Positions 31,941 through 56,566 of a stretch of DNA of 64,000 bases are shown one piece after another. A program made the translations under genes and the position numbers. The notes under the pieces were generated by a model. That model did no database searches. It had not been told where the DNA came from and worked only from the letters and a program-made list of their open reading frames with translations. The stretch comes from Hyphomicrobiales bacterium (lineage in GTDB: Bacteria; Pseudomonadota; Alphaproteobacteria; Rhizobiales; Xanthobacteraceae): positions 1-64,000 of the forward strand of contig JAKFUP010000031.1 of assembly GCA_021732625.1 (NCBI GenBank). The letters run 5' to 3'. How positions within the stretch are numbered: the first letter of the stretch is position 1; the number at the start of each line of letters is the position of its first letter.

Positions 31941-31943
31941 CAG

Positions 31944-35741: not shown

Positions 35742-35758
35742 TTAACGACAGCAATTCA

Positions 35759-36113: not shown

Positions 36114-36166
36114 AAATTCACGGAGGAGTGAAAAGCCTGGTGGCCCCTTCAAGAACGTGTGATCTT

Positions 36167-36192
36167 GTAACCGACGCGTGCATTTCTCCGAA
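36167..36192 (+). promoter_or_regulatory. ECF promoter for the sigma/anti-sigma operon
   Basis: GTAACC (36167-36172), 16-bp spacer, CGAA (36189-36192), 14 bp before the sigma gene's ATG at 36207. It would let the sigma factor activate its own operon, the usual ECF arrangement. Exact spacer and sequence match the divergent copy at 36088-36113. Confidence 0.7.
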
Positions 36193-36206
36193 CTGGCAAT
36201 AAGGAC

Positions 36207-37399: not shown

Positions 37400-37624
37400 A
37401 CAAGGCGCATCGCAAACGGCGATCGACAGACGGACTGTGACCATTCCATGTTTCGACGAGATTTGATGACTGTCCGGAACGAGCATCATGACCCGATGTC
37501 CGCACCCACATGCGCATAGCAGATCGGCAACCTCAAACTCTGGGCTGTGATACACAACGCCATCACTGAGCAGCTTAGGTAGGCGGTCGCTGCGAACCGC
37601 ACAAACGGACCTGATGGCGAGGGG

Positions 37625-38041
37625 TCAACGCCAGTAGGTGAACGCAGGGTTAGCCAGCGTCCCTATGATCCGGCATTCGGAAATCCGCCCGCGCTTGCAC
37701 TGCCGGATCATGCGCTTCATCTCGGACCGCAGACCGGCAAGTTGTTCGATCTTGGTGTCGATTTCGGCAACGCGCTGGCGCGCGATCTGATCGACCTCAC
37801 CGCACCGAAGGTCCGGTTGGTCCGCGAGGGCCAGGAGCTGACGGATGGCCTCGATATCAAAGCCCAAGTCCCGCGCATGGCGGATAAATGCCAGCCGACT
37901 TACGTGCTCGTCTGCATAGCGCCGCTGGCCGCCGGAGGTACGCGGCGGATGCGGCATAAGCCCGATTTGCTCGTAATACCGGATCGTCTGCACTTTGCAG
38001 CCCGTAGTTCCAGCAAGTTCGCCAATCGCCAAGTCGCGCAT
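37625..38041 (-). CDS. MerR-family metal-responsive regulator
   Basis: A 138-residue MerR regulator: N-terminal winged helix (IGELAGTTGCKVQTIRYYEQIGLMPHPPRTSGGQRRY, ~5-42), long dimerisation helix, and Cys ligands Cys79, Cys115 and Cys122 spread as in the ZntR/CadR/PbrR group. It is divergent from a CDF-type exporter gene, with a MerR-type promoter between them, so it most likely activates that exporter on binding Zn, Cd, Pb or Co. The exact metal cannot be told from sequence. Confidence 0.9.
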   Translation of the reverse strand: MRDLAIGELAGTTGCKVQTIRYYEQIGLMPHPPRTSGGQRRYADEHVSRLAFIRHARDLGFDIEAIRQLLALADQPDLRCGEVDQIARQRVAEIDTKIEQLAGLRSEMKRMIRQCKRGRISECRIIGTLANPAFTYWR

Positions 38042-38053
38042 TCGAGATAGTCC

Positions 38054-38084
38054 TTGAAGCTCTAGTCACTGGAGAGTTTAGGAT
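38054..38084 (+). promoter_or_regulatory. MerR-type promoter/operator for the CDF exporter
   Basis: TTGAAG (38054-38059) and TAGGAT (38079-38084) are separated by 19 bp, longer than the 17 bp of normal promoters, as in MerR-controlled promoters. The spacer contains the dyad CTCTAGTCACTGGAG. It faces the gene at 38121 and lies upstream of the divergent MerR gene. Confidence 0.8.
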
Positions 38085-38120
38085 TGGGCCACGGTCGGTT
38101 CAAGAGCGAAGGCCAGAATC

Positions 38121-38765
38121 ATGGAATCGTGCGGCAGTTGTTGCGGTAGCAACGTCAAATTTGAAGGGCTGTCAGTCGACTACAAGCGACGGCTCTGGAT
38201 CGTCATCGCGATCAACGCCGGTATGTTCTTCATTGAGATGGGCGGTGGCACGCTCGCAGCCTCCAAAGCATTGCAAGCCGACGCACTTGACTTTCTAGGC
38301 GATGCCTTGACCTACGGGATCACGCTTGCTGCCATCGGGTCGTCCGTTGCGGTGCGGGCACGCGCTGCGCTGTTTAAGGGCGTTACGCTGAGCCTGATGG
38401 GCCTTTGGGTGTTCGGCTCAACCGCCTACCACATTCTGATCTTGGGCGTTCCAAAGGCCGAACTGATGGGTGCCGTGGGGTTCTTGGCGCTCGCGGCCAA
38501 TGTCACCAGCGTCCTTCTACTCGCCAAATACAAAGACGGTGACGCTAACGTGCGTTCGGTTTGGCTTTGCTCGCGGAACGACGCGCTCGGCAACGTCGCC
38601 GTCATGGTAGCCGCTCTCGCCGTCTATTGGACCGTCAGCGCGTGGCCCGATCTGATTGTGGCCGCCATCATGGGCGGGCTGTTCTTGTGGTCCTCGGCTC
38701 AAATTTTGAAGCAGGCCCTAAGCGAGTTGCGGCAGACCAGAACCGCCGCCGTTCCTGCTGAATAA
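38121..38765 (+). CDS. Cation diffusion facilitator family metal exporter
   Basis: A 214-residue inner-membrane protein of the CDF family with a short Cys-rich start (MESCGSCCGSN). Motifs ADALDFLGDALTYG (~helix 2) and WLCSRNDALGNVAVM (~helix 5) supply the paired Asp/Asn metal sites; the first has a double Asp where HxxxD is usual. The short C-terminal tail lacks the cytoplasmic CDF dimer domain. It is controlled by the divergent MerR gene and probably exports a divalent or soft metal. Confidence 0.85.
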   Translation: MESCGSCCGSNVKFEGLSVDYKRRLWIVIAINAGMFFIEMGGGTLAASKALQADALDFLGDALTYGITLAAIGSSVAVRARAALFKGVTLSLMGLWVFGSTAYHILILGVPKAELMGAVGFLALAANVTSVLLLAKYKDGDANVRSVWLCSRNDALGNVAVMVAALAVYWTVSAWPDLIVAAIMGGLFLWSSAQILKQALSELRQTRTAAVPAE

Positions 38766-38899
38766 AATTGGACGATTGATGTCGCCTTTTGGCACCCAGC
38801 GGACTTACAATCCACTCTAACGTACGTCTGCTTTGAGTGACGAAATGGACATGCCCTAGTCCGTCGCGACTTCCGTTAGATATTGCGGCTTTGCCCGCT

Positions 38900-39595
38900 T
38901 CACATCGCCAATGATGGAATCCAGAAGTAATAGGTATTCAGCATATAGAGCCCGGAAGCAATCATCGTGACTGCGCCAGCAATCTCGAAACCTCTTTGGT
39001 ACTTGGTGAGGATGTTTAGGTTTTCTAACCATCCGACCGCCAAGGCGCCGATCACGATAGGAACCGCCCGCCCCACAGAAAACGCGAACAATAGCACCGC
39101 CCCGTAAAATGGTGAGGCGATAGCGGCAGACGCACCGAGCAAGATGATAAGCGCGGGGGTACAGACCGGGCAGATCGCAACCGAGAACACTGCGCCAAGC
39201 GCAAATGCTCCCCAGACGGTGTTTGCACGGCTGGCTCGCAGCCCCAGCGAAGGCAACGGCAGGTTTATCCATCCGGCCCACAGGAACCCAAGTACGATAA
39301 GTACGGGACCGAGCAGCAGCCCCCATTCGCGTCCCAATACATCGGCCGCCCAACTCCCACCGAACCCGGCAATGAAGCCGAGGAGAACCTGAACGATGAT
39401 CATGCCAGCAGTGAAGGCCACACCAAATAGGATTGATTGGCGTATATCTCTGGCTTTGGTCACATAGGCAAGTGAAACAGGTATGGAAGCAAGCGCGATG
39501 GGATTAAAACTGAAGACGAAGCCAGCCAGGAAGCCGACGCCGAGTGCGAGAAGACCAGCGTGTTCTGCCGCCTGACGGAGTGCTTCGGTATCCAT
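38900..39595 (-). CDS. CcdA/DsbD-like membrane thiol-transport protein
   Basis: A 231-residue protein with six membrane helices of the CcdA/DsbD-beta family, which carries electrons across the inner membrane to periplasmic thiol proteins. In the second half, AICPVCTPALIILLGAS holds Cys residues; in the first half the usual SPC motif is FNPIALASIPV with no Cys, so the canonical cysteine pair is incomplete. It is last in a four-gene, reverse-strand operon with two thioredoxin-like proteins and a MerR regulator. Confidence 0.82.
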   Translation of the reverse strand: MDTEALRQAAEHAGLLALGVGFLAGFVFSFNPIALASIPVSLAYVTKARDIRQSILFGVAFTAGMIIVQVLLGFIAGFGGSWAADVLGREWGLLLGPVLIVLGFLWAGWINLPLPSLGLRASRANTVWGAFALGAVFSVAICPVCTPALIILLGASAAIASPFYGAVLLFAFSVGRAVPIVIGALAVGWLENLNILTKYQRGFEIAGAVTMIASGLYMLNTYYFWIPSLAM

Positions 39596-39596
39596 T

Positions 39597-39857
39597 TCAA
39601 GCTTCCTTGCTGATCCGTTTGACTAGCTCCCGTTCGAAATGCTGCGACGTGGGCAACGAGGCGAACACCACTTCTCCGTCAATTGCGATTGCAGGCAGTG
39701 TGAGGACGCCGAGTTCGACAGCATAGTCGATCTCATCGAGAACATTCATTTCACGCCAAAGAAGATTCGGGATCAGTTTCTTGGCCGTCGCTCTCAGCCC
39801 CTCCTTGTTGGCGACGCATTTCGGACAGCCGGGGGTATAAAAAAGGTCAATCCTCAT
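39597..39857 (-). CDS. Thioredoxin/glutaredoxin-like protein with CPKC
   Basis: An 86-residue thioredoxin-fold protein. Active site CPKC follows the first strand (IDLFYTPGCPKC), and the cis-proline segment LGVLTLPAIAIDGE is present. Its start overlaps the MerR stop by one base, and 1 bp separates its stop from the ccdA-like start. It probably uses electrons carried by the CcdA-like protein, or shuttles metal-thiol adducts. Confidence 0.85.
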   Translation of the reverse strand: MRIDLFYTPGCPKCVANKEGLRATAKKLIPNLLWREMNVLDEIDYAVELGVLTLPAIAIDGEVVFASLPTSQHFERELVKRISKEA

Positions 39858-40273
39858 CAGTTTGTATTCCCAATTGCCTGTTCAAGAGCGGCGAGGATTG
39901 GGCAGTCATCCAAAGGTCGGCTGTCTATGCTGCACGCCTCAATCAGGTTATGAAGCGCATTTGACATGACCTTCATCGCCTTAATCTTGGCCTCAAGCTG
40001 CAGCCTCTTTTCCAGCGCTAGTTGGCGCACATCTTGGCAGCAGGCCTCATCACGCTTGCGCAAGGTGAGAAGCGCGCGAATCTCCGTCAAGGTGAAGCCG
40101 CACTGTTGAGCTTGCTTGATGAAGCGGATGCGCCGTAGTGCGTCTTGTCCGTAGAGTCGGTAGCCACCCCCGCTCTTAGCGGCGGGTTCAATGAGAAGCT
40201 CTCGCTCGTAGTATCTCAGGGTGTCGGTACTTACGTTAGCGAGCGTGGCGATCTTTCCGATTGTGAGAGACAC
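39857..40273 (-). CDS. MerR-family heavy-metal-responsive regulator
   Basis: A 138-residue MerR regulator: [41 protein letters not shown], then a dimer helix and a Cys-rich ligand region with adjacent cysteines at DEACCQDV, then [17 protein letters not shown] near the C-terminus. This is the metal-sensing architecture of CadR/PbrR/MerR relatives. It sits inside the operon it probably controls (thioredoxin-like genes on both sides), 2 bp after the first gene's stop. Confidence 0.9.
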
Positions 40274-40275
40274 CT

Positions 40276-40542
40276 CTACAAAGCCTTTCCTAGTCCTGCC
40301 GCCCGCAGTTGCTTTTCGTCAATACCGCGACCGGCGCAGCAGTCAGCAAGCTTGCCGTCTATCACGACGGATGGGACGGAAAGAATTCCGAGAGATTTGG
40401 CGCGTTTGGCTACATTTATGTCCTTCATATCTTGAATAGTTACCTCGCAAGACGGACACGCCGTGCTCTTAACAGTCTCAATGACTTCGTTGCATGCATC
40501 ACAGCCTGCACTGAACACTTCGACTTTGCGTTTCGCGGCCAT
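40276..40542 (-). CDS. Thioredoxin-like protein with CDAC and a second Cys cluster
   Basis: An 88-residue thioredoxin-fold protein. Active site CDAC in [11 protein letters not shown]; additional Cys at STACPSCEV and DCCAGRG, so seven Cys residues in all, suggesting metal binding as well as redox work. [13 protein letters not shown] is the cis-proline segment. First gene of the four-gene operon behind a MerR-type promoter at 40576-40607. Confidence 0.82.
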
Positions 40543-40575
40543 TAGGTCACTCCTTGTGGAACCAGTTGAACCAGC

Positions 40576-40607
40576 AGGCTACACCTTGGAGTCAACTCCA
40601 GAGTCAA
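40576..40607 (-). promoter_or_regulatory. MerR-type promoter/operator for the thioredoxin-merR-thioredoxin-ccdA operon
   Basis: On the reverse strand TTGACT (40607-40602) and TAGCCT (40581-40576) are separated by 20 bp, with the dyad CTGGAGTTGACTCCAAG in the spacer; the long spacing marks a MerR-activated promoter. The remainder of the gap to 40872 holds no supportable gene. Confidence 0.8.
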
Positions 40608-40872
40608 GCGATTGGCGTTCACAAGCCCTTGATCGGAGGCGGCTACCTAGATTCAACGTGTGGTGGGCGGGGGAAAGTTGGGAGTTGTGGCCCAACACGG
40701 GCCATTTAGATCCGTCGCGCTGAAGAAAGAATTTTTTCGGCAGCAACGTCAGTTCAAGGCCCAAACCAGAAATGATACGCGCATCAATCAATGTCGGCTG
40801 TTGCGGGGAAAACGGACTCTATGTTTCCGCGATGAGTATTTCAGCTTTTGATCCGTTGCGGACATGCGTCCC

Positions 40873-41304
40873 TTATTTTGAACGCCTGATATCGAGAATA
40901 TCTAATACGGGGCAATCGGGTGCCTTGGTGCCGGTGCACTGCGCAACTGTTTTTGACAGCAATCGTTCCATTTTACGAAGGTCGGCAATCTTCGCACGGA
41001 TATCGTCGAGATGATGTGTCGCAATTTCGCGAACCTGGCGGCACGAAGCTTTATCAGGCCCTCCGAGGCGGATCAGCGCCCGGATTTCTTCAAGCGAAAA
41101 GCCCAACTCACGCGACCGCCGTATAAAGGCGAGGATGCGAACGTGAGTAAGATCATATACGCGACGGCCACCCGCAGTGCGCGGCGGTGCGGGTAGCATC
41201 CCGATCCGCTCGTAGTAGCGGATGGTTTCGATATTCACGGTCGTCAGGTCCGACAAATCGCCGATAGCGAAACTTTCCGCTCGCACATCTGTGATCGAGT
41301 GCAT
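40873..41304 (-). CDS. merR: Mercury-responsive MerR regulator
   Basis: A 143-residue MerR regulator: winged helix (IGDLSDLTTVNIETIRYYERIGMLPAP) and the three Hg(II)-ligand cysteines Cys88, Cys123 and Cys131 placed like Cys82/117/126 of classical MerR. The start ATG at 41304 is used; the frame is open upstream. It is divergent from merT with a MerR operator between, so it represses and then activates merTP when Hg(II) is present. Confidence 0.93.
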   Translation of the reverse strand: MHSITDVRAESFAIGDLSDLTTVNIETIRYYERIGMLPAPPRTAGGRRVYDLTHVRILAFIRRSRELGFSLEEIRALIRLGGPDKASCRQVREIATHHLDDIRAKIADLRKMERLLSKTVAQCTGTKAPDCPVLDILDIRRSK

Positions 41305-41315
41305 GCCCAATTGCC

Positions 41316-41346
41316 TTGCTCCTGTAGTCACTACAGGAAGTACATA
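41316..41346 (+). promoter_or_regulatory. mer promoter/operator
   Basis: TTGCTC (41316-41321) and TACATA (41341-41346), 19-bp spacer with the dyad CCTGTAGTCACTACAGG. It lies between merR and merT and should be bound by MerR. Confidence 0.82.
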
Positions 41347-41373
41347 GGCGAAAGAACAACAAAGGACAATGAA

Positions 41374-41787
41374 ATGAGCACCCCGCCGAACGCTGTTGGG
41401 TCATTTACGTTAGGTAACGAAACCAGCCGCACTTCTCTCAACACGGGGCAAAAACTGGCAGCAGCGGGCGGGATCATCGGTGCCCTCGCAGCATCCTCTT
41501 GCTGCATCCTACCGTTGGCACTCTTTAGCCTTGGCATCGGCGGCGCTTGGATTGGGAACTTTACGAAACTCGCTCCATATCAACCCTACTTTATCGCGGC
41601 CACGCTTTCATTCGTCGGCGCTGGCTACTGGCTTGTCTACCGCTCGGGCAAGCTCGCGTGCGCCGAAAGCGAAGCTTGTGCGCGGCCTCTGCCCAATAAG
41701 CTCGTCAGGTTCGCCCTCATCGCCGCAACGGCAATCGTGATCGCTGCGTGGCTCTTTAATTACATCGCGCCCTATGTCCTGTCATAA
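41374..41787 (+). CDS. merT: Mercuric ion transport protein MerT
   Basis: A 137-residue inner-membrane protein with three helices. The first helix carries the Hg(II)-accepting Cys43-Cys44 pair (ASSCCILPL); Cys96 and Cys102 (CAESEAC) lie on the cytoplasmic loop. It receives Hg(II) from MerP and passes it into the cytoplasm for reduction. Start ATG at 41374, behind AAAGGAC. It is followed by merP with an 18-bp gap. Confidence 0.93.
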   Translation: MSTPPNAVGSFTLGNETSRTSLNTGQKLAAAGGIIGALAASSCCILPLALFSLGIGGAWIGNFTKLAPYQPYFIAATLSFVGAGYWLVYRSGKLACAESEACARPLPNKLVRFALIAATAIVIAAWLFNYIAPYVLS

Positions 41788-41805
41788 CTAACGGAGCAAC
41801 TCCTG

Positions 41806-42087
41806 ATGAAATACCTAATCGTCGCTACCTTCGCACTCGGCCTCGTCGCTTCCTCCGCAGCGGTCGCTGATGAGCAAACAGTAACGCTGGCGGTAAAAAA
41901 CATGGATTGCGTGGCGTGTCCGCACATCGTGAAGTCAAGCCTGCAATCCGTGCCGGGCGTAAAGGCGGTATCAGTCTCCTTTGAGAAGAAAACCGCAGTC
42001 GTTACATTCGATGACGCGATAGCCGACGTGAGAGCGTTGACGGCAGCCACAACAAATGCGGGCTATCCATCCTTGCCAAAAAGCTGA
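41806..42087 (+). CDS. merP: Periplasmic mercuric ion-binding protein MerP
   Basis: A 93-residue HMA-domain protein with a signal peptide (cleavage after ~SAAVAD). The metal site is MDCVAC with Cys35 and Cys38, then the ferredoxin-like HMA fold (SLQSVPGVKAVSVSFEKKTAVVTF). It captures Hg(II) in the periplasm and hands it to MerT. It lies between merT and a GDCCVxC gene, 6 bp apart from the latter. Confidence 0.93.
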   Translation: MKYLIVATFALGLVASSAAVADEQTVTLAVKNMDCVACPHIVKSSLQSVPGVKAVSVSFEKKTAVVTFDDAIADVRALTAATTNAGYPSLPKS

Positions 42088-42093
42088 GGGCCC

Positions 42094-42324
42094 ATGATGC
42101 TTCAATCCGTAATCACTTGTCCGCACTGCGAGGTCGCGAAGCTGGAAACGATGCCAACCGATGCATGTCAATTTTTCTACGTGTGCACGGGGTGCGGCAC
42201 GAAGCTCAAGCCGAAGGACGGCGACTGTTGCGTTTTCTGTTCATACGGCTCTGTGCCCTGTCCACCAATCCAAGCCGAACGTGAGACCGGTGCGGCCTCC
42301 TGCTGCACAACGCAGCCACTGTGA
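42094..42324 (+). CDS. GDCCVxC-domain small protein (mer-associated)
   Basis: A 76-residue cysteine-rich protein of the GDCCVxC family: two N-terminal zinc-knuckle-like pairs (CPHCE, CTGCG) and the name motif GDCCVFCSYGSVPCPP. In other genomes some members carry selenocysteine in this motif and cluster with mercury genes. Here the positions are Cys. Nine to ten Cys suggest soft-metal binding. Third gene of the merTP operon. Confidence 0.85.
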   Translation: MMLQSVITCPHCEVAKLETMPTDACQFFYVCTGCGTKLKPKDGDCCVFCSYGSVPCPPIQAERETGAASCCTTQPL

Positions 42325-42520
42325 GCAAAGTCGCAAAGCCGATTCTCGCGTGGTGGATACCAAAGGGTTTCATCATTGCCGCACTGCTGCCCCCCGCACC
42401 CGTGCGTGTTGCGGTATGGACCACCGCGCTCATCTGAATGGGACAGCGTGCATCTTGAACTTGCGGCGCTGGCGGGCGCACTCACTGCCGCTATCGAGTA
42501 CACGCCCTAGCCAGAGGGCT
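42321..42520 (+). pseudogene. Broken small membrane-protein gene of mer operons
   Basis: A GTG at 42321 overlaps the previous stop (GTGA) and opens 38 residues (VAKPILAWWIPKGFIIAALL...) before a TGA. Continuing in other frames gives TACILNLRR and then GRTHCRY, which I recall as the continuation of a conserved small membrane protein found downstream of merTP-like genes. An in-frame stop and at least two frame changes break it. Beyond it, to 42711, nothing else is supportable. Confidence 0.5.
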
Positions 42521-42711
42521 TTGAGCAGCCAATGAACTCCGAGCAATTCAAACAGGCTCATCCCCGTGTTCGGGAGCGCGCGATGCCATTTGCGATTCAG
42601 CGCACTTCGTCTGAACTTAGCCGGTAACGATGAAATGGCGATTCCGTTATAATATTCGGCTTGATCGAGCCCGGTTGTCCTCGTAGACCTTAGACGTGGA
42701 AGGATGAAAAG

Positions 42712-43065
42712 TTGATCATTGGGATATCAGCAATCAAACGTTGGCCGGCAATTCGCCGGACGATTGCCGCTATGTGTGCCGCAGCATTCCTGATTGTGAC
42801 ATTCGCGCACTCCGTCGAGCATTATTCCTCCCAGCAATCCGTCGGGCATGATGTAAGCTTTTCCACTGATGGGGGAGATCAACCGAATTCCGGCAAGGTC
42901 GCCGATGTCGATGGTCACTGCCACGGCTGCATTATGCTCGCCACCATCGACTTTGATGCTCGCGAAACGGAAAAGTCCGTACATTTGCGCGCGCCTTACA
43001 TCCCGATTGGGATGTCACGCATAAATCTTCCTACCGATATCCCTTACCCCATAACCGCCATCTGA
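42712..43065 (+). CDS. Small membrane-anchored protein upstream of czcC
   Basis: A 117-residue protein from a TTG start at 42712 behind GGAAGG. One N-terminal helix (RTIAAMCAAAFLIVTFAHSVEH, ~15-37), then a mature part with DGHCHGCIML, a His/Cys motif that could bind metal. Similar small CHGC proteins sit in front of cus/czc operons in other bacteria (from memory). Probably the first gene of the efflux operon. Confidence 0.6.
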   Translation: MIIGISAIKRWPAIRRTIAAMCAAAFLIVTFAHSVEHYSSQQSVGHDVSFSTDGGDQPNSGKVADVDGHCHGCIMLATIDFDARETEKSVHLRAPYIPIGMSRINLPTDIPYPITAI

Positions 43066-43116
43066 CGCTGTTCGCCGCGCTCTCTAGAGTGCGTGATTGC
43101 TTGTCAGGTTGGTGCC

Positions 43117-44375
43117 ATGCTTGTCCGTATTTCTGTAGTCGTAACGCTTTGGCTATGTTTCGGCTTTATCCCACCCGCGTGGGCTCAGGCCGGAAGCCCG
43201 TTGTCGTTGCGGGATGCCGTCCAACGCGCGCTTTCTTCAAATCCGCGGCTCACGTCCGCGGATCGAGACATTGGCATTGCGACCGGGAGACGCGTTCAAG
43301 CAGGTGCGATCCCGAACCCTGAAGTGTCGTTTGAAGCCGATAATGTTCTCGGCACGGGCGCATATCGCGGCACGCGATCTGCCGAAACCACGCTTCAGCT
43401 TGGACAGTTGGTCGAGCTCGGTGGCAAGCGAGACGCGCGTATAGCGGCTGGATCGGCGGGTGTCGATGCCGCGTTCTATCAACGCGCTGCGGTCCGCCTT
43501 GAAGTTATTTCTGATGTGGCCGTGTCGTTCTTTAACGTACTGGGAGCGCAGCGACGCATCGCTATTTTCGACGTCCACGTCGCGGCCTTGCAAAGACTGA
43601 TCCCGCTTTTGCAACGTCGGGTAGATGCGGGCGCATCCTCCTTCGCGGAGGTAGCTCGCGCGCAAGTGGCTGCGGACCTCATCCGGGCAGATCGAGAGAA
43701 AGCTAAAACGGCCCTTGCGATAGCCAAGTTGGAGCTTGCGACCCTGATGGGAGCGTCGCGCGTCGACTATTCGCTAGCGATCGGTGACTTCAGCCGAGCA
43801 GGAATCGTCCCCTCGTTCTCCATGATACGCCGGGCGGTTGAAGGTAACCCACAGCTCATCAAGTTCACAGCGTTGCGTGCTCAGCGCGATGCAGAACTGC
43901 TTGTTGCGCGATTGAAGGCCGTACCCGATCTGAGGGCTGGCGTTGCATGGCGCCACCTTAATGACACCGGCGACAACGCTGTTCGCATTGGAGTTTCCAT
44001 CCCGATTCCGGTGTTCGATCAGAACCGAGGCGGCATTCTCGAAGCGCAGCAACAGCGGGCAAAGGTTGAAGCTGAGGCATCGATTTCCCGTGCGGCGCTT
44101 CTCCTAACTCTTGGTCGTGCATACGAAACCCTCAGCGGATCGGCGCGCGAGGCCGATATCCTTCATGGTTCGCTACTCAACGCGCGCCGTGCCGTCGAGA
44201 GCATGGAGAACGGTTATACCCAAGGCCGGTTTTCGCTTCTTGAACTTCTCGATGTCCACAGTAGCGCGGCACAAGCTGCCTTGCGGGAGTTGGATGCGCT
44301 TATGAGTTTCTACGTTTCACTTGCAACAATCGAGGGGCTGATCGGAACGCCGCTGCACCTCAGCGGAGGACCACG

Positions 44376-44379
<4 letters not shown>
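43117..44379 (+). CDS. czcC: Outer membrane efflux protein, CzcC family
   Basis: A 420-residue TolC-like outer-membrane factor. Signal peptide from the ATG at 43117 (cleavage near PAWAQA); a GTG at 43093 is an alternative. Two repeats of the helical TolC pattern are present (LRDAVQRALSSNPRLTSADRDIG; VARAQVAADLIRADREKAKTALAIAKLELATLMG). It forms the outer-membrane channel of the HME-RND pump. Stop overlaps the czcB start (ATGA). Confidence 0.9.
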
Positions 44380-48887
<4,508 letters not shown>

Positions 48888-48891
<4 letters not shown>

Positions 48892-49349
48892 TCCCGCTCG
48901 GTAAGTTTGCCTTCTCGCTATCGTTCGGCTTCTTAGCAATCAGTCCAGTAGCCGTAGAGCCAGCGTGGTCACGCTCAGCATTCAAGGAGCGCGGGGCATG
49001 GGCTGACGAGCATATCGATACGTTACCGAGCAAGATCCGAACTCGTGTAAAGTTGTTTCAAAGAAACTGCGGAGACCGAATTGCCGCCACGCAATTTTTT
49101 GCTCGACCAGTTAGCAGCGGCCGTTTTTTAGTTCTGCATTACGAAGCTCTTTGGTGTCCCAAACCCGACCTTGTTTGCAGGAAGGAGACCTGCCTGCACG
49201 AAGTCTATGTGCAATCAAGTCGTGGATTCGCGCGAGTGTTCTCTGGATTTATAGACGACGAAACACTCTTCCGTGGAAGGAGCGGGCTTAAGCTAAATCT
49301 CATGGAAGAACTTCAGTGGGACGGGAAACGCTTCTTGCCCCTGCAATGA
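48888..49349 (+). CDS. Hypothetical secreted protein of the czc operon
   Basis: A 153-residue protein with an N-terminal signal (FAFSLSFGFLAISPVAVEPAWS). The mature part has four Cys (RNCGDR, LWCPKPDLVCRKETC), consistent with a disulfide-linked fold. No family recognised. It is translationally coupled to the preceding gene (ATGA), so it belongs to the efflux operon. Confidence 0.6.
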
Positions 49350-49381
49350 TTTGAAACGCGATACAGGGGTTTGACCTTAAC

Positions 49382-50320
49382 ATGAGCATTCACGATCACG
49401 AAAGCGAGCGACACTCGCATGGCGGACCCCAGCATCTCCATGTGCCTGCTTCGTATGGACGAGCGTTTGCACTTGGCATCAGCTTGAACATTGCGTTTGT
49501 TGCTATCGAAGCTGCGTTTGGTTTCTGGAGCAACTCGGTTGCACTGCTTGCCGACGCTGGCCATAACCTCTCTGACGTTCTTGGGCTTATGGTGGCTTGG
49601 GTCGCGACGTTTTTGTCCGCGCGTGCGCCGTCGTCCCGATACACATACGGTCTTCGTGGTTCGTCAATACTCGCGGCACTTTTTAATGCGATGCTCCTTC
49701 TCGTTGCTATGGGAGGTATTGCGTGGGAGGCAATCCTTAGGCTTCAGAAACCCGAGCCGGTTGCAACCATGACGGTGATGATAATTGCTGCCATCGGCAT
49801 CCTCATCAATGCGCTCACGGCTTGGCTCTTCGCTTCGGGCAGAAAGGGCGACCTCAACATTCGAGGCGCTTATCTTCACATGGCGGCCGATGCTGGTGTC
49901 TCCGCAGCAGTCGTCGTTGCCGCCCTGGGCATTTATCTTACAGGCTGGCTATGGCTCGATCCCGCCGTAAGCCTGTTGCTCGTAGGCGTTATATTTTGGT
50001 CAACGTGGGGGCTACTTCGAGATAGCGTGGCCATGTCTTTAGCTGCTGTTCCCACCAACATCGATTTGGATGTCGTGCGTGCTTATTTCCTTGACCTTCC
50101 GGGTGTGTCAACGCTGCACGATCTTCATGTCTGGTCAATGAGCACGACCGAAACCGCGCTGACCGTTCACCTAGTGATGCCGGAGGGCTACCCGGATGAT
50201 AAATTTCTCATGCAAATCCAATCCGATCTGCACGATCATCATGGTATTGAACACCCGACGATTCAGATCGAAACCAGCTTGGATACAGAGTGCAAGCTTT
50301 CTGCGGAGAACGTTGTCTGA
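49382..50320 (+). CDS. CDF-family metal exporter (CzcD/DmeF-like)
   Basis: A 312-residue cation diffusion facilitator with a His-rich cytoplasmic start (HDHESERHSHGGPQHLHV). The transport sites ADAGHNLSDV (helix 2) and HMAADAGVSAAVV (helix 5) provide the HxxxD/DxxxD metal tetrad, and a ~90-residue C-terminal cytoplasmic dimer domain is present. It moves Zn, Co, Cd or related ions from cytoplasm to periplasm, where CzcCBA can take them. 32 bp after the previous gene. Confidence 0.92.
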   Translation: MSIHDHESERHSHGGPQHLHVPASYGRAFALGISLNIAFVAIEAAFGFWSNSVALLADAGHNLSDVLGLMVAWVATFLSARAPSSRYTYGLRGSSILAALFNAMLLLVAMGGIAWEAILRLQKPEPVATMTVMIIAAIGILINALTAWLFASGRKGDLNIRGAYLHMAADAGVSAAVVVAALGIYLTGWLWLDPAVSLLLVGVIFWSTWGLLRDSVAMSLAAVPTNIDLDVVRAYFLDLPGVSTLHDLHVWSMSTTETALTVHLVMPEGYPDDKFLMQIQSDLHDHHGIEHPTIQIETSLDTECKLSAENVV

Positions 50321-50446
50321 TCTGGCATTGTGGACAGGACTCCCCTAAATCTGTTTGAAATCCCTTTGCCAAGCACAAGGCGGCTTTAGTTAGTTGCGTT
50401 CGCGTGCGATTTAGAGTGCGAGCTATCGTTTGGCTTCAATACGGCG

Positions 50447-51043
50447 TCAAACGTAAACGCTGGTACATGCTTTAAGCGCTTGCTTAGTGCGAGGACTGGG
50501 AAAATGCTTGTAAAGCGTGGAATCTGACACGCCAATCTGATCAGCGACCTCTTTAACGGTTAGCTTGCCGTCCCGCAGCAGCGTTTCGGCGACTGAGCGT
50601 TTTTGATCGTTCATCAGCGGAGGTCGGCCACCCCGTCTTCCTCTAGCGCGAGCTGACTTCAATCCCGCAAGAGTGCGTTCACGAATGATGCTTCGTTCAA
50701 ACTCGGTCAAAGCGCCGAAGATATGAAATACGAGCCGACCACTGGGTGTCGTTGTGTCGATAGTTTCTGTCAGGGAACGAAAGCCACATTCTGCATGGTG
50801 GACGGCTTCGATTGTCGCGATAAGTTGGGTCAGCGAGCGCGCAAGTCGGTCAAGCTTCCAAACAACCAAGCTATCGCCCGGCCGTAAGTAGTCCAACGCG
50901 GCTTTCAGCTGCGGGCGATCCGCTTGCGAACCTGAAGCTTCTTCCGAGAAGACTTTCAAGCAGCCTGCGGCATCTAAAGCGTCAAGCTGTAAAAGCGGAT
51001 TTTGATCCGAGGTTGAAACCCGCGCGTAGCCGATCAGTGACAT
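50447..51043 (-). CDS. Serine resolvase/invertase
   Basis: A 198-residue small serine recombinase. Catalytic Ser10 in YARVSTSDQN, conserved DRLARS (~residue 71) and the long E-helix EFERSIIRERTLAGLKSARARGRRGGRPP, then a C-terminal HTH (TVKEVADQIGVSDSTLYKHF). Resolvases of this kind belong to Tn3-type or invertible elements. The ATG at 51043 was used. No transposase gene accompanies it, so it may be a relic of a transposon or a local inversion/resolution function. The 243 bp to the TIR gene hold nothing clear. Confidence 0.92.
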   Translation of the reverse strand: MSLIGYARVSTSDQNPLLQLDALDAAGCLKVFSEEASGSQADRPQLKAALDYLRPGDSLVVWKLDRLARSLTQLIATIEAVHHAECGFRSLTETIDTTTPSGRLVFHIFGALTEFERSIIRERTLAGLKSARARGRRGGRPPLMNDQKRSVAETLLRDGKLTVKEVADQIGVSDSTLYKHFPSPRTKQALKACTSVYV

Positions 51044-51286
51044 GGTGGACGCTCCAGTAAACGTCCGCACCATAAGACATTATAGGAATAATTTCCAGAT
51101 AGTGTTTTTGGATGTTTTTTGCAGGGCATTTCAGCGCGATCAGCTTTCTTCGACCAACATCAAGAAAACGAACGTTTTCCTGAAAGGCCCCCGGTAGCTC
51201 AGCCGCTTACCAATATTAGGTATTGAAACGACGCAGCAAGCCCACGACCTACTACGAACTGCGTAAGGGGATGGGAAGATGGGAAT

Positions 51287-51775
51287 ATGACACCGATAAA
51301 AGTTTTTCTTTCACATCAGCAAGCCGATACGAGTATCGCAGCGATGATTGCGCAACGACTACGCAGCTATCATCAAATCGATGTCTATCTTGATGTCATC
51401 GACTCAAATATGTGGCGGGGTGGGCTTGATCTAGCCGATTACATTCGAGAGCAGCTTGAACAATGCACTCAGCTGCTGGCGGTCATTTCTGAACGAACAA
51501 AAGCTTCGCAGTGGGTGCCTTGGGAAATTGGGGTTGCCACGGAAAAAGAGCGCCCCCTAGCTTCGTTCGTAGAGCGACCGGCAATCGTCCCGGAGTTTTT
51601 GGCGAAGTGGCCGTATCTCCAAACAGTTGACGATATTGATAAGTACGCACAAACATCAAAAAGAGCTCGCGCTACCTTTGACAGTCTTAGTCGAACAATT
51701 ACGGCTTCTACAGCTCGACGAACGGCTTTCCGAGAATTTCACACGGGTCTTAAGTCGGCTTTGGGACAGCGCTAG
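51287..51775 (+). CDS. TIR-domain protein (TIR_2-like), first gene of a TIR-caspase operon
   Basis: A 162-residue protein that is nearly all TIR domain: strand A VFLSHQQADTSIAAMIAQRL, then IDVYLDVIDSNMWRGG, IREQLEQCTQLLAVISERTKASQW and the catalytic-type VPWEIGVA with Glu80 (candidate NADase glutamate). A ~55-residue helical tail follows. Bacterial TIR enzymes cleave NAD and make ADPR-cyclic messengers in immunity. It is the first of five closely spaced genes. I cannot tell whether the tail controls activation. Confidence 0.88.
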   Translation: MTPIKVFLSHQQADTSIAAMIAQRLRSYHQIDVYLDVIDSNMWRGGLDLADYIREQLEQCTQLLAVISERTKASQWVPWEIGVATEKERPLASFVERPAIVPEFLAKWPYLQTVDDIDKYAQTSKRARATFDSLSRTITASTARRTAFREFHTGLKSALGQR

Positions 51776-51822
51776 CAAACTATCCTCAAAAAAACCAATT
51801 TAATGCAGTTTTGGAGGCATTT

Positions 51823-52194
51823 ATGGCTGAAACGAAAACGGTTTTTGTTGCGTTTGCGATTGAAGACGAAAAGCAAAGGGATCTCCTAAAGGGACAATCG
51901 CTTCATCCGAGAGCACCATTTGAGTTCATCGATATGTCAGTGAAAGAACCATATGACAGCAATTGGAAAGATCGCGTGCGCACGCGCATAAGGCGTTCCC
52001 ACGGCGTAATTGTGCTCGTCAGTTCGAGCTCTCACAACTCCAGTGGCCAAAAGTGGGAGATTGCATGCGCCAAGGAAGAGAAAAAGCCTATCCGTGGAAT
52101 TTGGGCATACTCAAATGATCGAGCAAATATTATCGGCGTTCAAACGACTACTTGGAGCGACGTCAACATCAGCGGCTTCATCGACTCGCTGTGA
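51823..52194 (+). CDS. TIR-like protein of the ThsB/DUF1863 type
   Basis: A 123-residue protein of the TIR-like DUF1863 branch that includes ThsB of Thoeris: [51 protein letters not shown] and the catalytic region [11 protein letters not shown] with Glu79. Unlike the first TIR it has almost no additional domain. ThsB-type TIRs detect phage and make a cADPR-related signal. 47 bp after the first TIR and 7 bp before the caspase. The ATG at 51823 is used; an earlier one at 51811 is possible. Confidence 0.85.
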
Positions 52195-52201
52195 GGACCA
52201 A

Positions 52202-53197
52202 ATGCGAAAGGCACTAATCGTTGGCGTCGACTATTATACAGCGCTATCCAAACTGACCGGTTGCGTTCACGACGCACAGTCTGTGTCGCAGATGTTGGAA
52301 CATCATGCAGACGGGCAAATTAATTTTACGGCGCCAAAGCTATTAACTGCGACTGCGCCTCACAAAATGATCAAACGCAACGAGTTGCGTGAGGCAATTA
52401 AGGATCTGTTTTCAGACAAGAGCGAAATTGCACTTTTTTATTTCGCGGGTCACGGTTTTGTAGATGAAACAGGCGGATTTCTTTGTGCAAGTGATTGCGT
52501 TGACGGAAACGATGGCCTGCCGCTAAGCGATATCATGACGTTTGCGCGCGAGTCCAAAGCAATTAACAAAATTATCATTCTCGACAGTTGCCATTCTGGA
52601 GTCGTAGCGGACCGCCCTGGAGACAAAAAGATCGCCGAAATTAGCGACGGAATGACCCTTTTAACAGCATCGACTGCGGAACAGTATGCGCACGAGGGTG
52701 GGAACGGTGCGCCGGGAGTTTTCACAAATCTTTTGGTGGATGCTCTCAATGGAGCAGCAGCGAATTTGGTTGGTGACGTTAGCCCTGGAAGCGTCTACGC
52801 ACATATTGACCAGTCGCTCGGACCATGGGGCAAGCAAAGACCTGTATTCAAAACAAACGTACAGTCGTTTGTTTCGTTAAGGCGCGCCGTTGCGCCGATT
52901 GCGCGCGAAGAGCTGCGCCAACTCGCCACTCTTTTCCCAACCCCCGGTTTCGAGTTTCCTCTTGACCCAACTTATGAGCCGGAGCGGTCTGCCGATCAAC
53001 TCGCCAACAGTGCCATTCCTCCGCCTGATGCTGCCAAGAATTCCGTTTTTAGAATTCTACAGAATTACGTTCGGGTGAATTTAGTTGTGCCTGTGGGAGA
53101 ACCGCATATGTGGCACGCCGCTATGAACAGCAAAAGCTGCCGTCTGACCGTCCTCGGAGAGCATTATAGACGGCTAGTTGCTGAGAAACTTATTTAA
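52202..53197 (+). CDS. Caspase-like cysteine protease (peptidase C14) in TIR operon
   Basis: A 331-residue protein. The caspase domain (~1-225) has the catalytic dyad His84 (YFAGHGF) and Cys130 (ILDSCHSG) and the [12 protein letters not shown] substrate-loop region. A C-terminal ~100 residues ([17 protein letters not shown]...[13 protein letters not shown]) have no family I can name. GAGG overlaps the previous stop and supplies the ribosome site for the ATG at 52202. In some Thoeris systems a TIR-made signal activates a caspase-like protease; here it probably is the effector that degrades cellular proteins or matures a partner. The activating mechanism is inferred. Confidence 0.88.
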
Positions 53198-53206
53198 CCT
53201 GAGAGA

Positions 53207-53497
53207 ATGATGACCACTTTCAACGATGATAACAGCAAGGATGAGCTCGTTGAAAGATTGGCATCTATCGAACACGAGCGATGGTCACACTGGCAATCAT
53301 ATCTACATGGGAAGGGCCAACGCCAGCCCGATGGTTCGCTTGTATTGCCCTCGGAGCTTGTAGAGCGATGGGAGCGCCAAATACAAACTCCTTACGAGCG
53401 ATTAACTGACGCTGAGAAAGCAAGCGATCGAGAGCAGGTGCAAAAGTATTTTCCGGTGGTCGAAGATTATTTTCGGAGAGCACGGCGTGAGCAGTGA
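53207..53497 (+). CDS. RyR-like domain protein in TIR-caspase operon
   Basis: A 96-residue protein whose pattern (LVERLASIEHERWSHWQSYLHG, then TPYERLTDAEKASDREQVQKY) matches the RyR domain, with the HExW aromatic motif and the PYxxLxxxEKxxDR signature. RyR domains in prokaryotic conflict systems have been predicted to bind nucleotide-derived ligands. As a stand-alone gene between caspase and phosphoesterase it may be the sensor or regulator of the operon. It starts at 53207 behind GAGAGA, 9 bp after the caspase stop, and overlaps the next gene by 11 bp. Confidence 0.65.
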   Translation: MMTTFNDDNSKDELVERLASIEHERWSHWQSYLHGKGQRQPDGSLVLPSELVERWERQIQTPYERLTDAEKASDREQVQKYFPVVEDYFRRARREQ

Positions 53498-54836
53498 CCT
53501 TCGAACTTTTAGAGATCCCATTCTTTCGCTTTTTCAATCTGCCGTGAGCGAAATTGGACGAGCAATTGACGCCAAACCTCAAACGGACAGGTTCCTTCGC
53601 AAGTCTGCAGAGGCGGAGCTTGCGGCCGTTGCGGCGGACATAGCCGAAAGAGAGCATGATGGCTCGATACCGAGCACTCCAGCGCCCCGCGATCTGTCGA
53701 AGTCTGGCATCGCAAGGGAGTGCGCTGAACACGCTTTGAGATACTTGAAAGCATTGGCACGTCGCGACACAGAAGCACTTGCGGCTTTAGCTAACGAATT
53801 CACAATGGGTACATGCGATCCTGCCTGGCTTTCGACCCTAAAGGAGTATGACAAGTATTTCGATAAATCTGGGAATCGAAAGTCCGCGCCATACGTGCGC
53901 CCGTCAGACGCAGGCGCGGGCATAATTCAAATTCCTTCTAACGCGCGATTGGCGCTTGTGGGTGATTGGGGAACGGGGGCTCCGCCTGCGGCCGAATTGC
54001 TGAAGCTGATCGCGGCGGACAAACCAGATATTTTTGTTCATTTGGGCGACATCTACTATTCTGGCACTCCAGATGAATGCCAACGCAATTTTGCCGACCT
54101 GATAAGAGATGTTTTGCGTGCTGAGCGACAGACACATGTTTTCACTTTGTCGGGCAACCATGACATGTACTGCGGCGGCGTCGGATTCTATGATCTTATC
54201 AAGAATCTGAATGAGCGACCGTTTATCCAGCCTGCTAGCTTTTTCTGTTTACGCACAGCGGACGAGAAGTGGCAGCTTCTTGCTATGGACACGGGACTTC
54301 ATGATGACAATCCAAGCGGCGTGCATTCAGTGGAGACCTTTTTGGAAAGTGACGAAATTGATTGGCATTGTGAACGTATTCGCGAATTTCCTGGCAAGAC
54401 GATCCTCTTATCACACCATCAGTTATTTTCCGCTTTCTCTCCTATGGGAAAGACCACGATTGAAGGTGATAGATCAGCGATCAATCCATTACTGATGGCG
54501 TCGTTTGAGCGAATGTCATCGTGCGGGACAATTTCCGCATGGTTCTGGGGCCATGAGCATTCCCTCAGCATCTATCAGCCATTTGCAGGACTACAGCGTG
54601 GCCGATGCATCGGTCATGGCGCAATACCGGTTTCGCTTGCAGACAATATCTACGAACCGGTGAAGGGTTTGAGTAACCTCCCGTCCCTCATCGAGGGCAC
54701 GAAATTGATATCTCACGGCAATGTTTACACGCATGGCTATGCGCTGCTTTCATTGGGCGGATCGAAGTGCCACGTTGACTACATCGAACATCGGCCAACA
54801 GGGCGCTACGAAGTGTTCTCTGAAGTAATTGATTAA
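53487..54836 (+). CDS. Calcineurin-like metallophosphoesterase in TIR-caspase operon
   Basis: A 449-residue protein. The N-terminal ~145 residues are helical with no recognised family; from ~155 a calcineurin-like phosphoesterase follows with the full metal-ligand set: GDWGTG (Asp160), GDIYYSG (Asp188), GNHDMY (Asn224, His225), SHHQ and WGHEH near the C-terminus. This class hydrolyses nucleotides, cyclic nucleotides or phosphoproteins. A GTG start at 53487 overlaps the RyR gene. It could degrade the TIR-made signal to switch the response off, or act as a nuclease-like effector; both are inference. Confidence 0.85.
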   Translation: MSSDLRTFRDPILSLFQSAVSEIGRAIDAKPQTDRFLRKSAEAELAAVAADIAEREHDGSIPSTPAPRDLSKSGIARECAEHALRYLKALARRDTEALAALANEFTMGTCDPAWLSTLKEYDKYFDKSGNRKSAPYVRPSDAGAGIIQIPSNARLALVGDWGTGAPPAAELLKLIAADKPDIFVHLGDIYYSGTPDECQRNFADLIRDVLRAERQTHVFTLSGNHDMYCGGVGFYDLIKNLNERPFIQPASFFCLRTADEKWQLLAMDTGLHDDNPSGVHSVETFLESDEIDWHCERIREFPGKTILLSHHQLFSAFSPMGKTTIEGDRSAINPLLMASFERMSSCGTISAWFWGHEHSLSIYQPFAGLQRGRCIGHGAIPVSLADNIYEPVKGLSNLPSLIEGTKLISHGNVYTHGYALLSLGGSKCHVDYIEHRPTGRYEVFSEVID

Positions 54837-54932
54837 CCCAGTAGAACTGCTCAGAGGCAACTCTTCGGTATGTGATTGCAAAATTCGGCATTATACTTCG
54901 TCGTCCTCACTCATCACTTGATGGAGGACCAT

Positions 54933-55349
54933 ATGAGTTTGCTAAAGCCGTTGAACTTCACTGCCCTTCCGAAGTCTCAAGTCAATCCCACAACCGATCG
55001 CCGCACGCGAACAATAGCCCGGCTTGAGGAGCAGAAAGTGCTTCTCAAGGACGCCAGCTTTGTTCGTAAGGTCCGATCATTCGTCAAGAAGGAAGGCGTG
55101 CGGACGATGATCGAGAATGATCAGCGCGTGTTGCCGTGGTGGAAAGGAGCCCCGGACGGATCTATCCTTTTCGCAATCCGAATCGGCTCGAAGACGGTGG
55201 AGTTCGAGAAAGGCAAGGCGGCTGTCGTTGTTCAAGCAATCGACAAGCTGCCAGCAGTCATCGACACTTTGATCGCAGCAACCAAGGCCGGTGAACTCGA
55301 CACGCAGCTTGCGCAGACGAGTCGACCGCCACAAGTCAAGAAGCGTTGA
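54933..55349 (+). CDS. Hypothetical protein after the TIR-caspase operon
   Basis: A 138-residue protein, unrecognised. ATG at 54933 behind GGAGGA; an upstream frame extension is rejected. A short hydrophilic head is followed by a mostly alpha region (LEEQKVLLKDASFVRKVRSFVKKEGVRT) and a FAIRIGSKTVEFEKGK strand. Similar proteins of ~140 residues are common in alphaproteobacterial islands, as I recall. It may be part of the defence operon or separate; the 96-bp gap and own ribosome site favour separate. Confidence 0.6.
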   Translation: MSLLKPLNFTALPKSQVNPTTDRRTRTIARLEEQKVLLKDASFVRKVRSFVKKEGVRTMIENDQRVLPWWKGAPDGSILFAIRIGSKTVEFEKGKAAVVVQAIDKLPAVIDTLIAATKAGELDTQLAQTSRPPQVKKR

Positions 55350-55382
55350 TCTAGCCCTATCGGTAATTTCTAAGGCACGATC

Positions 55383-55410
55383 TAGGGTGTCTTTTCACGG
55401 AGACACCCTA
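55383..55410. terminator. 10-bp stem hairpin after the hypothetical gene
   Basis: TAGGGTGTCT (55383-55392) pairs perfectly with AGACACCCTA (55401-55410), 8-nt loop, 33 bp after the stop at 55349. No T-run follows, so it is a probable but not classical terminator. Confidence 0.55.
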
Positions 55411-55860
55411 CTTCCATGGCTTCTTTAAGAGCTTCTGACTTGTTGCAGGCTTCAAATGCATCAGCCCTACGGGGGATCGAGCGTCAAATCTTCAGTTTGT
55501 GACGCAGCAATCTTGTCTTAAAAAAATATCGAATGCATTGCGGCGGCGCATATAAATAGATTCGGGACGAACAAGGTTCGCCAAACTTCAAATCGATGCT
55601 TCTAATTTTCGATATGCCGAACTCTGGACGATGATTAGTGCTCGCCAGAGTCGTTGAGAAGTATCACTGCGTTTGCCCTCAAGCACCCAATCTCGGGACG
55701 CTTGATACACTGTGACTGCAGTTCGCAGTTCGCAATCTGCACACAATGTCACCAATGAACACACCATCATGCAATCCATCGAGATCAGACGATGGTTCGT
55801 GGTCACTACAAACATCAATCTTCATCATGAGAGTCTTGATTACAAAAGAAACGATATCTC
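55411..55860. other. Non-coding stretch upstream of the HUH-like gene
   Basis: About 450 bp of lower GC. A reverse frame at 55588-55818 lacks a ribosome site and a protein-like composition. There are small internal repeats (GCAGTTCGCAGTTCGCAATC near 55716) but nothing I can name. It could contain the nick site or promoter of the gene at 55861. Confidence 0.35.
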
Positions 55861-56502
55861 ATGATTACGAACCACCTGATTGCCAAAGGCATCGCTGACT
55901 CAATTGCGACAATTTACCAGTCTTCAACCGAAGCCGACCTGAACCAAGCAGTCATCGACAACGTGCTTGCCGTCACAATGAAATTCGATTCCGTGAAGCT
56001 TGAAGGTTCTCGTAACGATCCAGCGACTTATCTGACTGCTTATGGTGATTGGTTTCATTCGATCATGGTCCGATCGTTCGGAAACAATCTTGGCCGCAAG
56101 CGTCATCTTCAGCCGGTTAGTTACGCCTTCGTGGATTTCTCAGCATCACGCGGTCGTTCGAAGATCAATCCAGGGGAAATGGTGCGAGCCGGACTACTTC
56201 ATCTCCATGCGGTAATTGCATTACGTCCAGGCGACGGTCAAGCTTGTCGGTTGCCGTTCTTGGTTGCCGGATCAGCACATCGACAGCGTCAGTTTGGCGA
56301 CGTGAAGGTTACGCCGTTCGATCCGGCGCAAGGATCGCTTGAGAACATGATCGCCTACTTCAAGAAAGGCGCGGACGCCATCGGACCCTTCGCCCGGAGC
56401 GATTGTTTCGATGTATTTCCGCGATTCCGTACTCGGCAACGAGCGTGTCCGGACGTATCTGGCAATGGCAATATTGATGTGGGGCGCGCGTTGGGGCGCT
56501 GA
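55861..56502 (+). CDS. Possible HUH-type replication initiator at the right end of the island
   Basis: A 213-residue protein. A strand VSYAFVDFSAS precedes LLHLHAVIALRPGDG, an H-x-H metal-binding motif in the rolling-circle initiator style, and ENMIAYFKKGADAIG gives the Tyr-x-x-Lys catalytic pattern. Together they suggest a HUH endonuclease such as a replication protein or relaxase. It ends 48 bp before the right attachment-site repeat, and the ~40 residues before the stop (DVFPRFRTRQRACPD...) look atypical, so the C-terminus may be altered or the gene may have been shortened. Assignment is by motif only. Confidence 0.55.
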   Translation: MITNHLIAKGIADSIATIYQSSTEADLNQAVIDNVLAVTMKFDSVKLEGSRNDPATYLTAYGDWFHSIMVRSFGNNLGRKRHLQPVSYAFVDFSASRGRSKINPGEMVRAGLLHLHAVIALRPGDGQACRLPFLVAGSAHRQRQFGDVKVTPFDPAQGSLENMIAYFKKGADAIGPFARSDCFDVFPRFRTRQRACPDVSGNGNIDVGRALGR

Positions 56503-56550
56503 AACAGCCAAATCGAAAAATGCTTATTTCGCAATAATTTGCGGACGCTG

Positions 56551-56566
56551 CTGGCGGAGAGAGTGG
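56551..56566. repeat. Right attachment-site repeat (attR core) in the tRNA-Ser 3' end
   Basis: CTGGCGGAGAGAGTGG, identical to 23876-23891. On the reverse strand it reads into ...CACTCTCTCCGCCA, the acceptor-arm end of tRNA-Ser, so integration rebuilds a complete tRNA. Confidence 0.85.

Follow-up and report, generated by a model that had tools for sequence, protein, structure and literature searches.

The window (the whole 64,000-nt stretch of DNA analyzed here) carries on its + strand, at positions 51287-54836, a five-gene operon in the order TIR1, TIR2, caspase, RyR-like gene and metallophosphoesterase (Table 1). It represents a two-TIR form, recurrent but optional, of a known TIR-caspase system. 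TIR1 itself recurs as an optional module among TIR-caspase (type IV Thoeris-like) loci, since it was found at 10 of the 80 best-scoring loci among 385 caspase relatives and its distribution requires at least eight changes on the caspase tree. The first-pass annotation had considered the pairing of two TIR classes with a caspase unusual; the pairing is real, but it is not a one-off. By joining a second TIR and a RyR-like gene to the TIR-caspase pair, the operon touches on two open questions: how a single effector can serve the sensing of several phages, and what holds back a lethal cADPR signal until it is needed. Both can be tested by single-gene deletions.

Table 1. Coordinates of the operon genes and of the surrounding island in the window.
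Feature	Position	Strand	Basis
TIR1: TIR_2-type TIR protein, 162 aa	51287..51775	+	Pfam TIR_2, putative Glu80, C-terminal helical hairpin
TIR2: ThsB_TIR-type TIR protein, 123 aa	51823..52194	+	Pfam ThsB_TIR, putative Glu79
Caspase-like (Peptidase C14) effector, 331 aa	52202..53197	+	Pfam Peptidase_C14 1.6e-19
RyR-like small protein, 96 aa	53207..53497	+	Pfam RyR 0.0057, below cut-off
Calcineurin-like metallophosphoesterase, 449 aa	53487..54836	+	Pfam Metallophos 6e-16
Probable genomic island carrying the operon	23876..56566		Direct repeat, tRNA-Ser, tyrosine integrase

Operon organization and genomic context

The operon genes are separated by gaps of 47, 7, and 9 bp, followed by an 11-bp overlap, and the G+C content of the operon is 49.9% vs. 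57.5% for the window. The same five-gene order was also detected on Bradyrhizobium, Rhodopseudomonas and Methylobacterium plasmids, with proteins 53-80% identical to those of the window. This recurrence indicates that the arrangement is more than chance. The unit recognized earlier was right in joining the two TIRs to the caspase, but it missed the RyR-like gene and the metallophosphoesterase. An NCBIfam scan of the five operon proteins gave no match above cut-off; the caspase reached 102 of the 140 bits for the EACC1-associated caspase. In the metallophosphoesterase, ∼150 N-terminal residues lie outside the Metallophos match.

The operon sits within a probable genomic island at tRNA-Ser. The 16 bp that form the 3′ end of tRNA-Ser (56551-56566) recur as a direct repeat at 23876, with a tyrosine integrase gene (24051-25226) just inside the repeat, and the G+C content is ∼0.60 outside the island ends vs. 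0.50-0.58 between them. The island cargo also includes an RND efflux pump at 45326-48523 as well as a cation-efflux protein at 49382-50320. A serine recombinase gene of the Resolvase family (50447-51073, - strand) lies immediately upstream of the operon; in Methylobacterium currus a recombinase family gene (L016, 4306-4929) occupies the same place relative to the operon. The operon is followed by a gene for a small DUF6641 protein (54927-55349; Pfam 3e-6, just above cut-off).

Two TIR proteins of different classes

The best Pfam match of TIR1 was TIR_2 (2.7e-13, 50.9 bits), and the second was ThsB_TIR (PF08937; 2e-7, 31.7 bits), which passed its cut-off of 21.2. The putative catalytic Glu80 (WVPWEIG) was kept in all 23 aligned rows. 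The AlphaFold2 model of TIR1 (mean pLDDT 90.7) consists of a TIR core plus helices 114-135 and 140-159, in agreement with the helical tail proposed earlier for a TIR_2-like domain of 162 aa, whose coordinates and length were also correct. In Foldseek the best matches of this model were a B. cereus TIR (8fz9, 1.1e-4), SARM1 (9ugj, 1.5e-4) and EcThsB (8wcf, 1.6e-4). VIA-align superimposed 127 residues of the model on 8fz9 (Z 12.6, 3.2 Å), placing 8fz9 level with other TIR and nucleoside deoxyribosyltransferase folds. The resemblance to NADase TIRs and the strictly kept Glu80 would suit a TIR that simply depletes NAD+, adding to the killing without producing a signal. We consider such a second effector the least probable role of TIR1, given that signal-making ThsB is also among its closest fold matches and that 23 of 24 TIR1 loci are TIR-caspase loci, not free-standing effectors.

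TIR2 gave ThsB_TIR as its best Pfam match (7.5e-11, 42.8 bits; above the same cut-off of 21.2), a family that we take to be DUF1863 renamed. Its TIR_2 score, 22.3 bits, is below the TIR_2 cut-off of 28. The protein is 123 aa long from its ATG (51823-52194), and 127 aa if begun at the upstream TTG 51811 of the ORF listing; the previous description of a 123-aa protein of the ThsB/DUF1863 branch therefore matches the ATG start and the best family. The putative catalytic Glu79 was present in 74 of 75 distinct frames (the exception is one frame of a split gene in L022) and in 64/64 of a chosen subset. When the flanking residues were required as well (K[WE]E[IVL]), the count was 49/75, lower than for Glu alone.

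Comparison of TIR1 with TIR2 by BLASTP gave a single sizeable match of 41 residues, 10 of them identical. The profile-to-profile alignment (hhalign) covered 84 columns at 19% identity (E 7.5e-6), with the two putative catalytic Glu residues in register. In a joint quick tree of 22 TIR1 and 75 TIR2 proteins, one branch with SH-aLRT 100 parts the two groups, so that neither protein derives from the other as a recent or degenerate copy. This agrees with the first-pass annotation, which saw two TIR classes sharing only the generic fold. The idea that one TIR was copied from the other and degenerated is ruled out by BLASTP, hhalign and the joint tree. Both TIRs look functional, as far as the conservation of the putative catalytic Glu in each can tell.

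A TIR2-caspase core with the make-up of type IV Thoeris

A scan of 84,980 species genomes with the caspase alignment gave 385 confirmed relatives, of which the best-scoring 80 were retained. A TIR2 profile match was found beside the caspase at 75 of these 80 loci. At three of the others (L084, L087, and L091) another ThsB-like TIR occupies the TIR2 slot; at L056 and L065 no TIR for this slot was seen within 700 bp upstream. We conclude that TIR2-caspase is the stable core of these loci. In the window the two genes lie on the same strand, 7 bp apart, and the caspase residues His84 and Cys130 were kept in 83/83 aligned frames, the window's included.

Two sequence marks of type IV Thoeris were thus present: a single operon joins a TIR gene to a gene for a caspase-like protease, and the caspase has its catalytic His and Cys. 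By gene content and conserved residues, the TIR2 and caspase core fits the type IV Thoeris make-up. In type IV Thoeris, as described in PMC12847820 (citing Rousset et al., 2025), the TIR product N7-cADPR activates a caspase-like protease. Type IV Thoeris has in common with the window a TIR gene (ThsB class) adjoining the caspase-like protease gene and the retained catalytic His/Cys of the protease. What the window operon has in addition is a second TIR, from a different class, together with the RyR-like gene and the metallophosphoesterase. The N7-cADPR messenger and the protease activation belong to the characterized system, whereas the window is known from its genes.

A caspase search of 61 genomes (the source genome and its relatives) gave matches in 20 at E<=0.001. 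Beside the own locus, the best caspase match was partial (2.3e-12, G025) and the rest were weaker. At three loci, two from Bradyrhizobium and one from Nitrobacter (L022, L023, and L046), a second, divergent TIR2-caspase pair was seen upstream of the five-gene operon at ∼4200-5760 on the - strand. In L022 the caspase of the second pair and the TIR2 of the main operon each lie in two frames.

Occurrence of TIR1

Among the best 80 of 385 loci, TIR1 and the phosphoesterase occurred together at 8, TIR1 only at 2, the phosphoesterase only at 1, and neither at 69; the RyR-like gene, found at 68 of the 80, was far commoner than TIR1. With near-copies removed from this sample (67 distinct caspases at 97%), the counts were 62 for TIR2, 55 for the RyR-like gene, 9 for TIR1 and 8 for the phosphoesterase. 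At 10 of the best 80 loci the flank on one side is short, so that a gene there may have escaped notice. Since the sample is the best 80 of 385, the frequencies of 68/80 and 10/80 describe close relatives of the window's caspase and not all type IV Thoeris systems.

The caspase tree used for counting changes has 84 rows and includes plasmid loci chosen for carrying TIR1. It is an earlier 87-row version without L023_4235, L046_4205, and L079_11406; in the 87-row version the neighboring operon had contaminated the labels of L023_4235 and L046_4205. On the 84-row tree the RyR-like gene requires seven changes and the phosphoesterase two, against the minimum of eight for TIR1. The window's caspase falls in a 12-row group of the 87-row tree (SH-aLRT 99), in which 10 rows carry TIR1, the RyR-like gene and the phosphoesterase, and two are without TIR1.

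A search of 72,556 plasmid records with TIR1 gave 18 matches, 16 of them over most of the protein; the two partial matches (Aureispira and Priestia) were excluded. The most divergent TIR1 (Klebsiella), used as the query, recovered the same 16 and the partial Aureispira match. A caspase was found beside TIR1 in 13 of the 16 records, i.e., in 12 that were opened, where it lies within ∼2.5 kb of TIR1, and in R. bangladeshense by hit coordinates. The other three, all from Agrobacterium and with hit scores identical to those of L106, stand outside the caspase count. At E<=1e-20, TIR1 was detected in 3 of 385 class-level and 2 of 397 order-level genomes, the source genome being included in each.

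Together, the sources yielded 28 fetched loci with TIR1, or 24 after repeats were removed. A caspase and another, ThsB-type TIR were present at 23 of the 24, counting L101 and L105, where the caspase gene is in pieces; the exception, L119, is cut by the contig end. Gene content, conserved putative TIR active sites and caspase dyad, and the linkage of TIR1 to TIR2-caspase loci are direct observations on these loci. L091, L100, and L117 retain TIR1 together with a different ThsB-like TIR in the TIR2 slot. The gene set withstands rearrangement; at L118 and L100 it is arranged as two divergent units. A second TIR unique to the window operon, which was also considered, is ruled out by the TIR1 plasmid and genome loci.

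One presence/absence pair was found among the plasmids. The TIR2 and caspase genes of L019 (E. coli plasmid) and L108 (Klebsiella plasmid) are 96.7% identical over 1,704 bp; the match stops 30 bp before TIR1, and the L019 stretch is without TIR1 whereas that of L108 has it. TIR1 thus comes and goes as a module, and a near-identical TIR2-caspase pair without it means that TIR1 is not always needed. A weak match to the caspase C-terminus follows the intact caspase in both plasmids (L108, 6045-6194; L019, 7006-7302), in L108 directly before TIR1; judged from the sequences, the core may have been exchanged while TIR1 stayed. The L108 stretch was matched in only one of 5,426 E. coli genomes, that of L019.

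Some TIR1 loci contain additional genes. In Sinorhizobium chiapasense (L103, 7560-8765) a third TIR (401 aa, TIR_2 5.1e-22) follows TIR1. Rhizobium binae has a SLOG-like gene between caspase and TIR1 (L107, 6963-7442; annotated as DUF1273, Pfam YpsA 0.0023, below cut-off); SIR2-SLOG effectors of other Thoeris systems are described in PMC11204291 as activated by cADPR isomers. Annotated S8 proteases and CHAT-domain genes occur near TIR1 in Sphingomonas parapaucimobilis (L104) and on an Agrobacterium Ti plasmid (L106), hinting at protease cascades.

Possible roles of TIR1

Our preferred, though tentative, reading is that TIR1 is a trigger-recognizing partner of the TIR2-slot cyclase and that both feed one caspase. 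We rank it above a parallel cyclase, which in turn stands above a second messenger and, last, the NADase effector discussed above. In the scheme that we infer, with all of its catalytic steps, its messenger, trigger and heteromer, the two TIRs would form the signaling half of a type IV Thoeris-like TIR-caspase defense operon. TIR2 would be the core cyclase, converting NAD+ upon phage infection to a cyclic ADP-ribose signal (N7-cADPR in the characterized type IV system). This signal would switch on the caspase-like protease, and the cell would be killed or stalled. TIR1 would be an accessory second TIR that recognizes an additional trigger, most likely within a trigger-dependent mixed TIR complex with the TIR2-slot cyclase, like staphylococcal ThsB1/ThsB2. 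The RyR-like protein most likely would bind or hydrolyze the signal and thus tune or end it.

The closest precedent for TIR1 comes from S. aureus (PMC12578639), in which a phage capsid protein binds ThsB1, and ThsB1 recruits ThsB2 and stimulates its cyclase. In the same paper, Glu and Phe changes disrupt immunity in ThsB2 and not in ThsB1. A kept Glu alone is thus no proof of TIR1 activity, because staphylococcal ThsB1 has a Glu that is not needed. The type I Thoeris system ThsA-ThsB1-ThsB2 shares with the window two different TIRs and one effector; one TIR as the cyclase and the other adding trigger recognition was demonstrated there and would apply to the window by analogy. According to the same source, the S. 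aureus effector depletes NAD+, whereas a caspase takes that place in the window operon, and His6-tagged ThsB1 is 41.8 kDa in size, whereas the 162-aa TIR1 has only a helical hairpin added.

We favor the partner role because TIR1 is never the only TIR and because 10 tree rows carry it without either accessory gene. TIR1 as the only TIR was found at none of the 23 readable TIR1 loci, which weakly suggests that it depends on another TIR; this pattern rests on 23 loci with at least eight tree changes, i.e., few independent events. Against a partner role, a complete TIR fold and a Glu in every aligned homologue fit an independent cyclase equally well. No specific TIR1-TIR2 interface is obvious, as L091, L100, and L117 hold another ThsB-like TIR. 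Distance correlations among TIR1, TIR2 and caspase (r 0.59, 0.66, and 0.36) were not relied on because the TIR2 of L022 is split and its row probably comes from the neighboring operon.

The absence of TIR1-only loci also bears on the possibility that TIR1 and TIR2 are independent cyclases for different phages that make the same signal for one caspase. Such parallel sensors would be expected to leave some loci with TIR1 alone, and the few independent events apply to this argument too. The putative active sites are conserved in both TIRs, the TIR2 slot of TIR1 loci can hold different ThsB-like TIRs, and the L019/L108 pair has nearly the same TIR2-caspase stretch without and with TIR1, all as parallel sensors would predict. 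TIR1 also looks additive because TIR2-caspase without TIR1 is the common form (70 of the best 80 of 385 loci, 10 of the 80 having a short flank). We regard parallel sensing as improbable, yet ahead of the remaining alternatives.

It is rather unlikely that TIR1 produces another nucleotide, with the RyR-like protein or the metallophosphoesterase reading or clearing it. Eleven of the 13 phosphoesterase-bearing rows of the 84-row tree also carry TIR1 and the RyR-like gene, which together with the joint occurrence in the best 80 of 385 loci (8 with both TIR1 and phosphoesterase vs. 2 and 1 with one of them) is what two messengers would lead one to expect. However, no phosphoesterase gene lies within ∼4.5 kb in 12 of the 23 TIR1-bearing rows (L106, one of the 12, has it at a greater distance), and 10 are also without the RyR-like gene, leaving the caspase as the only recognized reader. 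With two tree changes for the phosphoesterase, its association with TIR1 amounts to essentially one event, in the window's clade, plus the divergent L100. The 12 rows weakly oppose the idea that a second messenger is produced solely for the phosphoesterase, and the tree gives no support to TIR1 as a partner dedicated to that enzyme. An independent-pairs test of TIR1 vs. phosphoesterase on the 87-row tree was uninformative, as the phosphoesterase did not differ in ∼6/6 pairs. We propose that the metallophosphoesterase is a lineage-specific extra.

The RyR-like gene

The RyR-like gene is the least expected part of the operon and may prove to be the more important one. It lies directly after the caspase gene in the genome loci that have it, and elsewhere in the gene set in the plasmid loci L100 and L104. 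In our sample it ranges over alpha-, beta-, and gammaproteobacteria, actinobacteria and acidobacteria. The window protein scored 17.3 bits against Pfam RyR (PF02026), under the cut-off of 27.4. Among the 56 relatives scanned, 51 matched Pfam RyR at E<=0.1, the best of them at 4.2e-5; every other Pfam family matched 6 of the 56 at most. Alignment of the RyR-like profile with six bacterial RyR domains (hhalign) gave a probability of 95.3 and E 2.4e-8. The model of the protein has a pLDDT of 91.9; no RyR structure was among the matches listed in its fold search, and for this reason the RyR link rests on sequence profiles.

In PMC13232231 it was reported that the phage protein RyDEP, which has a RyR domain, cleaves 2′- and 3′-cADPR, with H75, W78, H100, and D117 as ligand residues and H100 binding the phosphate. 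Of eight RyDEP homologues tested, six bound signals and none other than RyDEP cleaved them, according to the same paper. The terms "type IV" and "N7-cADPR" do not occur in the main text of that paper. The RyR-like protein shares with RyDEP the H..W motif and a conserved Asp (equivalents of H75, W78, and D117): H23, W26, and D74 were kept in 61/61 aligned homologues. This equivalence was set by profile alignment to other RyR domains plus inspection, and not by direct alignment to RyDEP. Unlike phage RyDEP, the RyR-like gene is host-encoded and lies inside a defense operon, its score is below the Pfam RyR cut-off, and the position equivalent to H100 is not conserved (R, K, T, A or other).

Because a phage RyR protein cleaves cADPR signals (PMC13232231), the host RyR-like gene may be a signal eraser or buffer. 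By analogy this is a reasoned guess, which we hold to be doubtful. Equally speculative is a two-input, one-executioner circuit with an off switch, in which two TIRs would raise a cADPR alarm, the caspase would fire, and the RyR-like enzyme would hydrolyze or sequester the alarm. As an off switch the RyR-like protein might work as a timer or set a threshold, comparable to the ring nucleases of type III CRISPR. If this is true, the RyDEP proteins of phages would be either captured from such a host component or parallel to it. In the titles and abstracts of the open-licence PMC literature we found no host-encoded RyR-like gene paired with a caspase effector; that literature does not include Rousset et al. 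(2025). Such a partner would tie RyR domains to host-side immune signaling, beyond phage evasion.

TIR2, caspase and the RyR-like gene were also seen together in an unverified phage record from human faeces (L120, 2222-3888).
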